The notes under the pieces: model-generated
Databases searched by the model: none
What the model was told of the DNA's origin: nothing
The model's input: only the letters and a program-made list of their open reading frames with translations
Assembly: GCF_002812805.1 (NCBI RefSeq)
Contig: NZ_NMUM01000019.1
Location: 1-64,000 of the forward strand
DNA from: Microbacterium lacus
Lineage (GTDB): Bacteria; Actinomycetota; Actinomycetes; Actinomycetales; Microbacteriaceae
Reading direction: 5' to 3'
Length of the DNA: 64,000 nt
In this document: positions 54,122 through 64,000 of the stretch, in pieces
Position numbering within the stretch: the first letter of the stretch is position 1
Layout of the letters: the number at the start of each line of letters is the position of its first letter
Translations under genes and position numbers: made by a program

Positions 54122-57100
54122 GTGCGTTATATCGAGAACGAAGGCCGGCTGGTCACGAGCGCGAGCGACCTCAAAGCCGCGTCGGAATGCGAGTTCGCGT
54201 GGGTGCGGGCGATCGATGCCCGCCTCGGTCGTGTCCCCCAAGTCGTCGAGCCTGAAGACCTGACGCTCGAGCGGGCGGCGCGACTGGGCGATCGCCACGA
54301 GCAGCGGGTGCTGGATGAGTATCTGGCGGACGATCCGGATGGCGTGGCCACCATCGAGCAGGTCTCGTCGGGCGATGCTTCGGCGCTGGCAGAAGCCGTT
54401 CGGCTCACGAATGCGGCGCTCGCCGACCCATCCGTGCGGATCATCTATCAAGCGGCGTTCGCGACCCGTGACTTCGTCGGTTTCGCCGACTTCCTGGTTC
54501 GCGACGAGAACGGTCGCTGGCTGGTGCAAGACACCAAGCTCGCCCGCCGGGCGCGGGTCACCGCCCTCATGCAGCTGGCGGCATACGTCGAGCGTCTCGA
54601 CGATCTAGGTGTCGAGCGCTCGGATCGCGTCGAGTTGCTGCTCGGCGACGGCACCACGAGTTCACACCTCGTCGACGACATCCTGCCCGTCTACCGGCTG
54701 CGCTACGCGCGCCTGATCGAACTGATCGAGAGCCGTCAGGTCGAGCTGGGTGCGGGGGGAGCGCCGACCGCGTGGGGGGACGACCGGTACTTCGCCTGCG
54801 GTCGATGCGCGACCTGCCAGATCGAGGTCGAGGCATCCCGCGACCTGCTCCTCGTCGCGGGCATGCGGCCGCTGCAGCGCACGAAGCTTCGGGCGGCGGG
54901 CATCCGCACGCTGGACGACCTCTCGGTCGCGCAGACGCCGCCTTCGACCCTGAACGCGGACGTCTTCGGCCTTCTGCGGACGCAGGCGCAGCTGCAGCGT
55001 GCGTCCGAGATCGCCGCGACCGACGCGCCCGACGCCGTCCCTGCGCCGGTGTATCGCGTCGTCGACCGTGCGGGACTCGCGGCGCTGCCCCCGGCCGACC
55101 CGGGTGACCTGTTCTTCGACTTCGAGGGCGACCCGCTCTACACAGAGGGAACGGGGACGGGAACGGGAACGGGCACGGGCGCGAGTACCGGCACGGAGTG
55201 GGGCATCGACTACCTGTTCGGCTGGGTCGACGAGAGCGAGACGTTCTCACGCCTCTGGGCGCACTCTTTCGCGGAAGAACGCGTGGCGCTCCAGCGCTTC
55301 CTCGACTTCGTGGATGTGCACCGCGCGGCTCATCCCGGCATGCACATCTACCACTACGCCCCCTACGAGCCCACTCATCTGCTCGCGATGGCTGCGCGCC
55401 ACGGCACGGGCGAGGCGCAGGTCGATCGGTTGCTTCGCGACGGGGTCTTCGTCGACCTCTACCCGATCGTGCGTCGTGCCCTGCGCGTCGGGTCGCGGTC
55501 GTACTCGATCAAGAAGCTCGAGCCGCTGTACATGGGGCACGAAACGCGTCAGAGCGACGTACAGCGCGGCGACGAGTCGATCGTCCGCTACGTCGAAGCG
55601 CGGATGCTTCAGGATGCGGGCGACGACGAGGGTGCGCGGGCGATTCTCGATGACATCGCCGACTACAACCGCTACGACTGCGTCTCGACCCGTCGTCTGC
55701 GCAACTGGTTGCGCGACCGCGCCGACGAACTCGGGATCGTCGCGATCGCCGACCCCGAACCCGACGCCGCCGGTTACGAACCCTCGCCGCGCGCCGTCGC
55801 GCTCATCGCGCTCGCCGAGTCGGCCGATGGCGAGGATGCCGCGGCCCTCCGCCTCGGATCGGCCGCGATCGACTACTACCCGCGCGAGGCGAAGAGCTAC
55901 TGGGCGACGCACTTCCTGCGCCTGCGCGAGCCCGTATCGGTGTGGGAGCAGAGTCGCGATGTCGCGGTCTTGGATGCGTCGCGCTGTGAGGTCGTCGAGG
56001 ACTGGCACCGTGCCGAGGGGCACCGGGTGGATCGACGCATCCTGCGCCTGCGCGGCGAACTCGCTCCCGGCACGCGCCTCTCGCCCGGAAGCGAGCCGTT
56101 CCTGCTTTACGAGCTGCCCGCGCCCTTCGTCTTCGAGGCATCGCCGCGGTGGTTGCATGCCGATCACCGCGGTCGCGTGTTGGAAGAGTTGGAGGACGGC
56201 GCGATCATCGAGGAGCGCGCTCGGGGCGGATTCACCTGGGGTGAACTCCCCATCGCGATCACGCCGGGCTCGCCGCCGCGTGCCCTGTCGCAGCAGGTCG
56301 CGATCGATGAGTGGGCCGACCGCGTGATCGCCGCGAGCCCCGCTTTCCCGACCGATGCGGCGACCGACCTGCTGCGCCGTCGCCCGCCGCGCCTGCGCGC
56401 GGGGCACCCGGTTGCCGCCGATCCGACAGATCCCGTTCCCGCGATCGTCGCGACGCTGCGCGACCTCGACCACAGCTACCTCGCCGTACAGGGCCCACCG
56501 GGCACCGGAAAGACGTACGTCGGCTCGCACGTGATCGAGCGTCTGGTGCGCGAGCACGCGTGGACGATCGGTGTCGTCGCGCAGTCGCACGCCGTCGTCG
56601 AGCACATGCTCGATCGGATCATCGACGCGGGTGTACCCGCCGCGCGGGTCGGCAAGGCGCCGAAGGACGATTCCGTGCCGGTGCGGTTCACCCCGCTGCA
56701 GAAGAACGGCGTCGCGGCATTCGCGGACGAGCACGCCCAGGCGGGGTTCGTGGTCGGCGGCACGGCGTGGGACTTCAGCCACGAGGGCCGCTTCCCCCGC
56801 GGTTCGCTCGACCTTCTCGTGATCGACGAGGCCGGGCAGTTCTCCCTCGCCTCCACCATCGCGGTCTCGGTTGCAGCGCAACGCCTGCTCCTGCTCGGTG
56901 ACCCGCAACAGCTGCCGCAGGTCAGCCAGGGCACCCATCCCGAACCCGTCGACACGTCGGCGCTCGGATGGATCATGGATGGGTCCGCAGTGCTGCCCGA
57001 CGCTTTCGGGTATTTCTTGCCCGAGAGTCGGCGGATGCATCCGCTCGTCGCCCTGCCCGTGTCGAACCTGTCGTACGCCGGGCGGCTGGCCTCACACCGC

Positions 57101-57670
57101 TCCGCAGCGCTCCGATCCATCGATGGCGTCGAGCCTGGCCTTCATCGGGTTCCGATCGAGCATCACGGCAACGCCACGGCATCGGTCGAAGAGGCGGCTG
57201 CAGTCGTGGATCTCGTGCGTGGGCTGATCGGCACCTCGTTCACCGATCTCGCGCGAGACGGCGGAGAACCCCGGGTAGTCGCCCCGCGGCTGCTCACGGC
57301 GGATGACATCATCATCGTGACGCCCTACAACGCACAGGCGGCGACCGTGTTGGCCGCCCTCGCTGAGGCGCAGTTGCCGCCCGTCCGCGTCGGAACGGTC
57401 GACAAGTTCCAGGGGCAAGAGGCCGCGGTGTCGATCGTTTCGCTCGCCGCGTCGTCGGGGCGGGATGCGCCCCGTGGACTCGAGTTCTTGTTGCTCGCGA
57501 ACCGTCTGAACGTCGCGATCTCGCGCGCCGAAGTGGCCGCGTTCCTCGTCTATTCGCCGGGCTTGCTCGACGATCTGCCGCACACCCCCGAGGGTGTGGC
57601 CCGGCTCAGTGGCTTCGCGCGGCTGGTGGAAGATCCAGGCGCTTCGTCAGCCCGACCACGGCGGCCGTGA
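54122..57670 (+). CDS. TM0106-family Fe-S RecB-like nuclease fused to SF1 helicase
   Basis: 1182 aa. Residues 1-240 form a RecB/Cas4-like PD-(D/E)XK nuclease (FVGFADFLVRDENGRWLVQDTKL), with Cys23 and a CxxCxxC triad (Cys226, 229, 232) that should ligate a 4Fe-4S cluster. Residues about 325-545 are an RNase H-like exonuclease domain (FFDFEGDPL; later IADYNRYDCVSTRRL). Residues about 760-1165 are a UvrD/Dna2/UPF1-like helicase (Walker A VQGPPGTGKTY, VIDEAGQFSLAS, GDPQQLPQ, TVDKFQGQEA, RLNVAISRAE). Role in DNA repair or defence is not established. GTG start, GAGAGGG upstream. Its last 65 nt overlap convergent gntK. Confidence 0.88.
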   Translation: MRYIENEGRLVTSASDLKAASECEFAWVRAIDARLGRVPQVVEPEDLTLERAARLGDRHEQRVLDEYLADDPDGVATIEQVSSGDASALAEAVRLTNAALADPSVRIIYQAAFATRDFVGFADFLVRDENGRWLVQDTKLARRARVTALMQLAAYVERLDDLGVERSDRVELLLGDGTTSSHLVDDILPVYRLRYARLIELIESRQVELGAGGAPTAWGDDRYFACGRCATCQIEVEASRDLLLVAGMRPLQRTKLRAAGIRTLDDLSVAQTPPSTLNADVFGLLRTQAQLQRASEIAATDAPDAVPAPVYRVVDRAGLAALPPADPGDLFFDFEGDPLYTEGTGTGTGTGTGASTGTEWGIDYLFGWVDESETFSRLWAHSFAEERVALQRFLDFVDVHRAAHPGMHIYHYAPYEPTHLLAMAARHGTGEAQVDRLLRDGVFVDLYPIVRRALRVGSRSYSIKKLEPLYMGHETRQSDVQRGDESIVRYVEARMLQDAGDDEGARAILDDIADYNRYDCVSTRRLRNWLRDRADELGIVAIADPEPDAAGYEPSPRAVALIALAESADGEDAAALRLGSAAIDYYPREAKSYWATHFLRLREPVSVWEQSRDVAVLDASRCEVVEDWHRAEGHRVDRRILRLRGELAPGTRLSPGSEPFLLYELPAPFVFEASPRWLHADHRGRVLEELEDGAIIEERARGGFTWGELPIAITPGSPPRALSQQVAIDEWADRVIAASPAFPTDAATDLLRRRPPRLRAGHPVAADPTDPVPAIVATLRDLDHSYLAVQGPPGTGKTYVGSHVIERLVREHAWTIGVVAQSHAVVEHMLDRIIDAGVPAARVGKAPKDDSVPVRFTPLQKNGVAAFADEHAQAGFVVGGTAWDFSHEGRFPRGSLDLLVIDEAGQFSLASTIAVSVAAQRLLLLGDPQQLPQVSQGTHPEPVDTSALGWIMDGSAVLPDAFGYFLPESRRMHPLVALPVSNLSYAGRLASHRSAALRSIDGVEPGLHRVPIEHHGNATASVEEAAAVVDLVRGLIGTSFTDLARDGGEPRVVAPRLLTADDIIIVTPYNAQAATVLAALAEAQLPPVRVGTVDKFQGQEAAVSIVSLAASSGRDAPRGLEFLLLANRLNVAISRAEVAAFLVYSPGLLDDLPHTPEGVARLSGFARLVEDPGASSARPRRP
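55148..55179 (+). repeat. In-frame hexanucleotide tandem repeat
   Basis: About five imperfect copies of GGAACG/GGGACG encode alternating Gly-Thr (residues about 343-353) right after FFDFEGDPLYTE in the RNase H-like domain. The six-base unit keeps frame on slippage, so copy number could vary without inactivating the gene. Confidence 0.75.
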
Positions 57671-62782: not shown

Positions 62783-63280
62783 TCAGAGTGCCGCGGCGCT
62801 CTTCGCGGCGCTGATCTTGGCGGTGTGCTCGGCGATCGCCGTGGCTACCGAGTCGAGTGAGCGGGTGAACTGATCCAGCTCTCCCTCACTGAGATGAGCA
62901 GTGGCGCCGCGCACCATGTCGGCGAAGTCCGCGTGAATCCGCTCCATCGTGGAGTGCGCCAGCGGGGTCAGCTCGACGAAAACGCTCCGCCGATCGCCCG
63001 GGTGCTCGGTGCGAACCAGCATGTCGATCTCAACGAGCCGACGGGTGATGAAGGTGATCGCACCCGTCGTGACGTGCATGTGCGAGGCAAGTTGTTTCGG
63101 GGTGACGCGGATGTGCTCGGCGACGTAGAACAGCGCTCGCAGTTCGCTCGCTGAGAGGCCTTCTTCTTCGGCGATGCGCTCACGATTGCGGTCGAGGGCA
63201 CGCGAGAAGCGAACCGCCGCGGTGGGGAACGCGTCGAGCCGGTGGGAACGCCCGATCTGCGCCGCCATCTGCTCCGTCAT
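62783..63280 (-). CDS. MarR-family regulator, possibly CrtR-like
   Basis: 165 aa. MarR core: LSASELRALFYVAEHIRVTPKQLASHMHVTTGAITFITRRLVEIDMLVRTEHPGDRRSVFVELTPLA (recognition helix and wing). GGAGG lies 7 nt before the ATG. It is divergent from the rhodopsin gene across a perfect palindrome. In corynebacteria a MarR regulator (CrtR) divergent from the carotenoid operon senses isoprenoid pyrophosphates; the analogous position next to a retinal protein suggests, but does not prove, a similar role. Confidence 0.85.
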   Translation of the reverse strand: MTEQMAAQIGRSHRLDAFPTAAVRFSRALDRNRERIAEEEGLSASELRALFYVAEHIRVTPKQLASHMHVTTGAITFITRRLVEIDMLVRTEHPGDRRSVFVELTPLAHSTMERIHADFADMVRGATAHLSEGELDQFTRSLDSVATAIAEHTAKISAAKSAAAL

Positions 63281-63339
63281 CTGGTCTCCTCCCGAATCGT
63301 TCAGTGTAACCGCGTTTTCGGGCAGAGGTTGTAATAGCG

Positions 63340-63354
63340 ACTAACTAAGTTAGT
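63340..63354. promoter_or_regulatory. Perfect 7-1-7 palindrome between MarR and rhodopsin genes
   Basis: ACTAACT-A-AGTTAGT, a MarR-sized operator. TATAGT (63361-63366) 6 bp downstream is a likely -10 for the rhodopsin gene, so a repressor bound at the palindrome would cover the polymerase site. Confidence 0.7.
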
Positions 63355-63378
63355 AACTTGTATAGTGACTGTGATAAC

Positions 63379-63398
63379 GGAGTTCCGCCCGGAACTCC
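63379..63398 (+). other. Hairpin in the rhodopsin 5' leader
   Basis: GGAGTTCCG-cc-CGGAACTCC, a 9-bp inverted repeat starting 13 bp past the -10 and ending 7 nt before the AAGGAG ribosome site. As RNA it would form a tight stem near the 5' end of the message; as DNA it could be a second operator. Confidence 0.6.
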
Positions 63399-63417
63399 CC
63401 CGACGAAGGAGTCCTAC

Positions 63418-64000
63418 GTGATACCCGACCTCCTGACCGCCGCGCAATTCTCGACGGTTTACAACGCCCTCTCGTTGGTGATCGCCGCGCAACTGTTCAC
63501 GGCGATATTCCTGCTGATCTCGCTCCCGAGGGTCCTACCGAGATATCGGACCGCCCTCACCATCGCGCTCGTCGTCTGTGGCATCGCCGCGTACCACTAC
63601 TTCCGCATCTTCGATTCCTTCAACGCGGCCTTCACGACGGAAGCCGCGGGAGGGCTGGGTGATTACACCACGACGGCCGGAGCGGCCTTCAACGAGGGCT
63701 ACCGGTACGTGGACTGGCTGCTGACCGTCCCGCTTCTGCTGGTCGAATTGATCGCCGTGCTGGCGCTCGCCCGCCAGCTGCAGAATCGTCTCCTCATGCA
63801 GCTCGTGCCGGCATCCATCCTGATGATCGTCCTCGGTTACCCGGGCGAGATCAGCAGTGATCTCGGTGTGCGGACCGTGTTCGGAATCCTCTCCACGATC
63901 CCGTTCCTGTTCATCCTGTACGTGCTGTTCGTGCAGCTGTCCCGTTCGCTCGCGAACCAGCCCGAGGCTGTTCGCGGCAAGATCAGCCGCCTGCGGTACC
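63418..64000 (+). CDS. Microbial rhodopsin, proton-pump type (partial, cut by window end)
   Basis: 194 residues visible. GTG start with AAGGAG 6 nt upstream. Five membrane helices are seen (about 15-37, 46-66, 95-118, 124-140, 152-175). Helix C has RYVDWLLTVPLLLVE: Arg96, counter-ion Asp99, Thr103 and proton-donor Glu110, the D-T-E pump motif. His60 (AYHYFRIF) matches the conserved His paired with the counter-ion. Leu107 sits at the green-tuning position. Gly156 is 57 residues after Asp99, the spacing of the antenna-fenestration glycine in Gloeobacter rhodopsin. The Schiff-base Lys (helix G) is beyond 64000. Likely a xanthorhodopsin/actinorhodopsin-like light-driven H+ pump. Confidence 0.92.
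   Translation, partial: MIPDLLTAAQFSTVYNALSLVIAAQLFTAIFLLISLPRVLPRYRTALTIALVVCGIAAYHYFRIFDSFNAAFTTEAAGGLGDYTTTAGAAFNEGYRYVDWLLTVPLLLVELIAVLALARQLQNRLLMQLVPASILMIVLGYPGEISSDLGVRTVFGILSTIPFLFILYVLFVQLSRSLANQPEAVRGKISRLRY

Follow-up and report, generated by a model that had tools for sequence, protein, structure and literature searches.

A xanthorhodopsin/actinorhodopsin-type gene of Microbacterium lacus, paired with a divergent MarR gene and lacking one base as assembled

The stretch of Microbacterium lacus DNA analyzed here, 64,000 nucleotides in length and hereafter called the window, ends inside a rhodopsin gene, which an initial annotation took for a light-harvesting, green-absorbing proton pump. 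Does this gene provide the organism with a working pump, how would it be regulated, and where would its retinal come from? Very probably, the locus holds a gene of the pump branch with a likely MarR repressor and with one base missing as assembled, and the source of retinal is the question that remains. The interest of the locus lies in the pairing with MarR and in the retinal question; the pump is ordinary for its branch. The features are listed in Table 1.

Table 1. Positions of the features discussed (contig coordinates; strand or frame where given)
Feature	Position	Strand or frame	Remarks
MarR-family regulator gene, 165 aa	62783..63280	-	divergent, 137 bases upstream of the rhodopsin gene
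Palindrome ACTAACTAAGTTAGT, perfect, 15 bases	63340..63354		between the divergent MarR and rhodopsin genes; candidate MarR operator
Hairpin GAGTTCCGCCCGGAACTC in the leader	63380..63397	+	z of the 66-base leader -2.3; not supported as a conserved element
AAGGAG, ribosome-binding-site-like	63406..63411	+	6 bases 5' of GTG; read from the sequence
Rhodopsin gene, 5' part	63418..64000	+	GTG start; in frame to contig base 64026
Rhodopsin gene, remainder	past the window, stop ending at 64247	-1 frame	three-frame translation
crt cluster	contig C1, about 283.4-289.1 kb		idi, crtE, crtB, crtI, two lycopene-cyclase-domain ORFs, UbiA elongase

Identity of the gene and its carotenoid pocket

The translation of 63418-64000 matches the Pfam family Bac_rhodopsin (PF01036) with 93.3 bits against a cut-off of 24.6. 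Its best match in the PDB is 9hfk (E = 1e-57), followed by Gloeobacter rhodopsin (6nwd; 5.2e-52), and the PDB sequences found at E-values up to 1e-30 are 9hfk, Gloeobacter rhodopsin, psXR, Kin4B8, 5azd, and xanthorhodopsin (3ddl). Every residue named in the initial annotation, i.e., H60, R96, D99, T103, L107, E110, and, 57 residues after D99, G156, was recovered in this translation, and Pfam, the PDB, and alignment to relatives bear out the family, the D-T-E motif, and the antenna-type Gly. As read from its sequence, the gene is of the xanthorhodopsin/actinorhodopsin type of outward proton pumps, a new and in itself ordinary member of that branch.

For comparison, 80 actinobacterial relatives were used, which are the best 80 of 284 matches and hence were chosen for good matching. 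H60, R96, D99, T103, L107, E110, Tyr207, and K234 are present in all 80 of them, and H60, D99, T103, and E110 are identical also in three reference chains. The nearest named relatives are from Microbacterium, with identities of 91% for Microbacterium sp. RU33B, 87% for 'Planococcus' sp. APC 4015, and 84% for M. rhizomatis; in the rhodopsin tree, these three group with the M. lacus gene with a support of 100/100. The titles of six loci clash with their positions in this tree, i.e., those of L006 (Planococcus), L021 and L067 (Acidobacteria MAGs), and L050, L053, and L076 (Bifidobacterium breve MAGs), which look misnamed or misbinned, or transferred. The B-C loop had been called unusually long. 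The stretch does exceed that of Gloeobacter rhodopsin and of Kin4B8 (39 vs. 34 residues from H60 to D99), which otherwise carry the H, R, D, T, L, E, Gly156, Tyr207, and Lys in the same columns, but a spacing of 39 residues is the norm in the clade, being found in 78 of the 80 relatives (38 in the other two).

By analogy with known families, a gene of this branch, held by a few Microbacterium species, would in an intact copy encode a protein with retinal on K234, in which D99 would serve as counter-ion and, together with H60, as proton acceptor, and E110 as proton donor, whilst L107 would tune absorption to green. The pocket of Gly156 and Tyr207 could hold a carotenoid. In xanthorhodopsin itself, these two residues are reported, and Gly153 of Kin4B8 is described as the equivalent of its Gly156 (PMC12308411, in excerpt). 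The Gly of M. lacus aligned with a Gly in all five PDB alignments inspected (9hfk, 6nwd, 9wfa, 7ytb, and 5azd); thus, neither the Trp nor the Phe that would have contradicted the initial annotation occupies the position. Position 207 is a Tyr in all 80 relatives, in Gloeobacter rhodopsin, and in Kin4B8, and a Phe in 9hfk; the Y207 of M. lacus lies 3' of a frameshift discussed below. Gly156 is present in 76 of the 80 relatives. The others, i.e., Ornithinimicrobium sediminis and three Nesterenkonia loci (L008, L026, L029, and L041), have a Phe and form a natural closed-pocket set; they are predicted to lack an antenna, because a bulkier residue at this place blocks zeaxanthin binding in Kin4B8 (PMC12308411, in excerpt). 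Of the light-harvesting antenna that had been proposed, then, the antenna-type Gly stands, but it is an entry criterion only, as binding is not readable from sequence.

A system similar by its description is ActR-13023 of strain IMCC13023, an actinorhodopsin in which Gly145 is the equivalent of Gly156 of xanthorhodopsin and for which a carotenoid of the strain itself was reported to shift the spectrum and to raise the initial pumping rate (PMC8113403, in excerpt). According to the same excerpt, the genome of IMCC13023 has blh, whereas none is seen in that of M. lacus.

A frame break before helix G

The initial annotation had named a frameshift beyond 64000 as evidence against its reading, and in the assembly there is one, at contig position 64026, 26 bases past the window, as revealed by three-frame translation and by DNA alignment with four relatives. 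The open frame persists past 64026, yet the rhodopsin text ends at ...SWGVY, and it is the -1 frame that carries PIAYLLP...SIADIVAKAVY... up to the stop codon. At the break, the DNA is one base shorter than that of the four relatives, and the missing base is located at a short C run where the C-terminal part begins. Tyr207 and K234, the retinal lysine, are both encoded 3' of the frameshift in the -1 frame; the helix-G lysine, which the initial annotation had advised looking for, is therefore encoded, but past the break and in the other frame. Unless the break is a sequencing or assembly error, the protein made by this strain would therefore lack helix G and would not respond to light. With its frame broken as assembled, the gene does not support the working pump that had been assumed.

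All 80 relatives, chosen as they were for good matching, have full-length frames of at least 266 residues each, those of RU33B, APC 4015, and M. rhizomatis included. A single TGA within the RU33B match is that gene's own stop codon, the match extending 3 residues past its 266. Ratios of dN/dS were calculated by NG86 for the first 203 codons and for the rest, between M. lacus and the four relatives and for three pairs among the relatives. They were below 1 in all pairs and in both parts, i.e., 0.07-0.23 in the first and 0.15-0.62 in the second, although dS was high and the values are rough. For M. lacus, they were 0.07 and 0.15 with RU33B, 0.11 and 0.29 with APC 4015, and 0.14 and 0.41 with M. 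rhizomatis, as compared with 0.13 and 0.22, 0.13 and 0.21, and 0.12 and 0.62 in the intact pairs. Both halves of the gene are under purifying selection, and there is no other damage. Together with the full-length frames of all relatives, this means that the break is either very recent or an error. Programmed frameshifting was also considered, but it is disfavored because all 80 relatives have full-length frames, and a slippery heptamer was not seen by eye.

Should the break be a true mutation, the gene would be a pseudogene of very recent origin, and the pump would have been lost from a lineage with no known means of making retinal; we give this the same weight as an error. In favor of a mutation, the assembly, in which the window is bases 1-64000 of contig 41, has 3.49 Mb in 44 contigs, with 99.98% completeness and 0.32% contamination. 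In a control, in which the ORFs of RU33B (140 kb) were compared with the 181-kb contig of M. lacus in both directions, 62 non-overlapping RU33B ORFs had a homolog on that contig, and the rhodopsin gene was the only one of them in which a clean sense-strand break was accepted. Before removal of overlapping ORFs, 6 and 5 ORFs were split in the two directions; thereafter, more than one frame was matched by 5 of the 62 ORFs of RU33B and, in the reverse direction, by 2 of 75 ORFs of M. lacus, one of which was again the rhodopsin gene. Among the other four split RU33B ORFs, one was read as two separate genes and three were judged from their coordinates, and the second multi-frame ORF in the reverse direction is antisense to a stretch of those two genes. 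That no other frameshift was accepted in comparable neighboring genes favors a real mutation and speaks against an error. A mutation is also favored by the failure to find either kind of retinal-forming enzyme sought in this genome (see below). Purifying selection on both halves and the lack of other damage are less expected of a pseudogene, and the three Microbacterium relatives keep the rhodopsin intact, although they, too, lack Blh. A sequencing or assembly error, with an intact pump in the strain, is an equally probable reading: a single base is concerned, at a short C run, and selection acts on both halves of the gene. The searches made did not turn up another strain of the species. Thus, a young mutation and an error are evenly balanced.

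The divergent MarR gene and the palindrome

The regulator gene upstream encodes a MarR domain (PF01047; 45.5 bits against a cut-off of 24.6). Relatives of it are located upstream of and divergent from the rhodopsin gene in 35 of the 80 loci, RU33B, APC 4015, and M. rhizomatis among them, and are missing in 45 (tblastn, E up to 1e-8). The 36 MarR-linked rows of the rhodopsin tree, that of M. lacus included, fall in a clade of 41 rows (support 98/95), and the label requires 4 changes on the tree as compared with 27 in shuffles. Of 198 genomes drawn from the genus, 197 contained some MarR match. However, after that of M. lacus itself, the closest was in genome G131 (71% identity, 233 bits), and the next one dropped to 31% and 52 bits. 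Three genomes of the draw carry this rhodopsin type; two of them thus have the close form, G139 (best MarR 33%) does not, and no rhodopsin-free genome has it. As G139 and the 45 loci lacking it show, the MarR gene is not indispensable to the rhodopsin gene. No description of a MarR-rhodopsin pairing was found in the open-access papers searched; a paper on Nesterenkonia counts a bacteriorhodopsin among its over-represented items (groups AT), and a MarR regulator as well, but its excerpt does not link the two (PMC8875376, in excerpt). The MarR gene accompanying the rhodopsin gene and the palindrome TTACTnAGTAA upstream are therefore possibly new. In 11 loci, mostly of Mycobacteriaceae, a minus-strand gene that looks TetR-like by eye lies upstream of the rhodopsin gene (L035, L037, L038, L044, L045, L047, L074, L076, L077, L078, and L079).

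When 1024 half-sites of five bases were tried with a spacer of one base, against 40 rounds of shuffling, TTACT/AGTAA was the joint top half-site, together with the overlapping register ACTTA; the shuffle maximum for any half-site was 4. With at most one mismatch, TTACTnAGTAA is present upstream of 12 of the 36 MarR-linked rhodopsin genes and of none of the 44 others (Fisher p 2e-5, kinship ignored). The twelve loci belong to Cryobacterium (five), Ornithinimicrobium, Arthrobacter, Pseudarthrobacter, and four MAGs. In M. lacus, the core of the palindrome, TAACTAAGTTA, has 2 mismatches to this motif, as do the best sites of RU33B and M. rhizomatis, whereas no site with 2 or fewer mismatches is present in APC 4015. 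The best imperfect palindrome in the MarR-linked upstream regions had on average 6.9 of 9 pairs vs. 6.3 in shuffled sequences, a slight excess, and 6.5 vs. 6.3 in the regions without MarR. An earlier candidate, AACTnAGTT, was rejected: apart from M. lacus, just 2 of the 80 loci had it upstream, and it occurred twice in the 181-kb contig.

From the observed linkage and motif, we infer that TTACTnAGTAA is the operator of the rhodopsin-linked MarR protein, which would act as a repressor responding to a ligand; in M. lacus, the intergenic palindrome would be its site of action. A precedent is CrtR of Corynebacterium glutamicum, a divergently encoded MarR protein that controls light-inducible carotenoid production. 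Isoprenoid pyrophosphates interfere with its binding to DNA, and its repression is presumed to be exerted over an inverted repeat that separates the divergent genes (PMC5401885 and PMC6739363, in excerpts). The likeness is one of arrangement, i.e., divergence from the gene faced with an inverted repeat in between; however, the MarR gene of the window faces the rhodopsin gene, whereas the CrtR type is divergent from the crt operon. It would be rather doubtful to go as far as a dedicated repressor with TTACTnAGTAA as operator that, as a counterpart of CrtR, senses isoprenoid or retinal and switches the pump on with its chromophore, in mostly Blh-less genomes making retinal by an undiscovered route. 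The regulation of these rhodopsin genes can be approached through the MarR gene, whose ligand might give a clue to how the chromophore is made.

M. lacus has a second MarR gene (L091 11233-11784, plus strand, on contig C1), which is divergent from the crt cluster, with idi first, and is CrtR-like by position. The rhodopsin-side MarR, which faces the rhodopsin gene rather than the crt operon, is 29% identical to it, and the gap between the crt-side gene and idi contains an imperfect palindrome, TCGCTAGCTtAGCTAGCTA, with 8 of 9 pairs.

Other elements were sought in the upstream region. No sigma-70-type promoter was matched in 63250-63500. A riboswitch or conserved leader structure was rejected, as the 66-base leaders of 80 sequences had a mean z of -0.5, with 13 of 80 below -2, and at the gathering threshold Rfam matched only a tRNA among the 8 loci given.

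The source of retinal

The initial annotation had suggested looking for crt genes and a carotene dioxygenase. The former are present, but as a cluster that looks C50-type; of the latter, neither a Blh- nor an RPE65-type enzyme was found in the genome. The profile PF15461 (Blh/Brp) had no match in the genome of M. lacus nor in any other of the 198 genomes of the genus, the positive control coming from other searches, in which it matched 6 of 21 and 26 of 49 handles of rhodopsin carriers, i.e., 32 of 70. G131 shares its coordinates with G199, the genome of APC 4015, and the two are probably one; counted so, there are 69 distinct genomes, 32 of them with a match. No match was thus seen in 37 of the 69 distinct carrier genomes, M. 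lacus and incomplete MAGs included. PF03055 (RPE65), which matched two control genomes, had no match in M. lacus either; among 22 genomes, it was found in G139, Mycolicibacterium chubuense, and Rhodococcus sp. IEGM 1381. Neither profile matched in RU33B, APC 4015, or M. rhizomatis. PF15461 was found in the genomes of 7 of 29 MarR-linked loci, as against 25 of the 38 loci without MarR (Fisher p 0.0012), a difference confounded by taxonomy; this count left out 12 of the 80 loci (L033, L018, L020, L021, L028, L048, L056, L061, L071, L073, L077, and L080) and L072, which is from the same genome as L019.

Within the genus draw, 5 of 198 genomes had any rhodopsin match, M. lacus included. This rhodopsin type is held by three, i.e., M. 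lacus, G131 (87%), and G139 (74% over residues 36-218), the other two matches being distant (33-34%). As only three of 198 carry it and none shows Blh, the retinal route of Blh-less Actinobacteria could be searched for by comparing rhodopsin-bearing with rhodopsin-free Microbacterium genomes. G139, which has this rhodopsin type without the close MarR, encodes an RPE65-type carotenoid oxygenase (C11:546587-547969; 393.7 bits), a candidate retinal-forming enzyme.

M. lacus and its three nearest rhodopsin-bearing relatives, lacking both kinds of enzyme sought, would resemble Aurantimicrobium minutum in this respect. Its rhodopsin, AmXLR, is by its description xanthorhodopsin-like, as that of M. 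lacus, and the species has neither blh nor diox1 but does have the C50-type genes crtYe/Yf and crtEb; endogenous retinal and proton pumping were demonstrated by experiment, in contrast to M. lacus with its broken frame, and cleavage of C50 carotenoids was proposed as the source (PMC7734400, in excerpt). By likeness to the gene sets in that paper, the carotenoid pathway of M. lacus looks C50-type, too: the UbiA prenyltransferase of its crt cluster exceeds the cut-off of NF009608 (elongase). The names crtE and crtB were assigned from family rank and place, and their products score below the NCBIfam equivalog cut-offs. However, C50 cleavage was rejected as a general source of retinal, since NF009608 was found in 27 of 32 PF15461-less and 13 of 17 PF15461-bearing genomes and, therefore, does not discriminate carriers by PF15461. 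Five PF15461-less carriers had no match over its cut-off, one of them with a weaker match. Blh-less rhodopsin carriers and a carotenoid-responsive actinorhodopsin have already been published (PMC7734400 and PMC8113403, in excerpts).

Might the opsin be retained in Blh-less carriers because of some role that needs no retinal, e.g., the scrambling of phospholipids? An acI actinorhodopsin is reported to have scramblase activity, and this function was raised for opsins without the last gene for retinal (PMC12805836, in excerpt); the 37 carrier genomes without PF15461 would fit it. Yet we consider this improbable: H60, D99, T103, E110, and K234 are kept in all 80 relatives, the PF15461-less ones included, as expected of a retinal-binding pump, and A. 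minutum both contains retinal and pumps although it has no Blh (PMC7734400, in excerpt).

A retinal-forming gene adjoining the rhodopsin gene was also considered and rejected. In the flanks (~5-6 kb) of the 80 loci, MarR is the commonest family besides rhodopsin and antisense ORFs; with names given by eye, the families comprise rhodopsin (79 loci), antisense ORFs (43), MarR (35), an unnamed mixed-strand family (12), and TetR-like (11). By eye, a lycopene-cyclase-like flavoprotein gene is located near the rhodopsin gene in seven loci (L021, L023, L027, L031, L067, L082, and L084), and PF15461 was present in all six of their genomes that were searched. Elsewhere in the window, 54122-57670 on the plus strand holds an ORF of 1182 aa that looks nuclease/helicase-like by eye and contains a run of alternating Gly and Thr.
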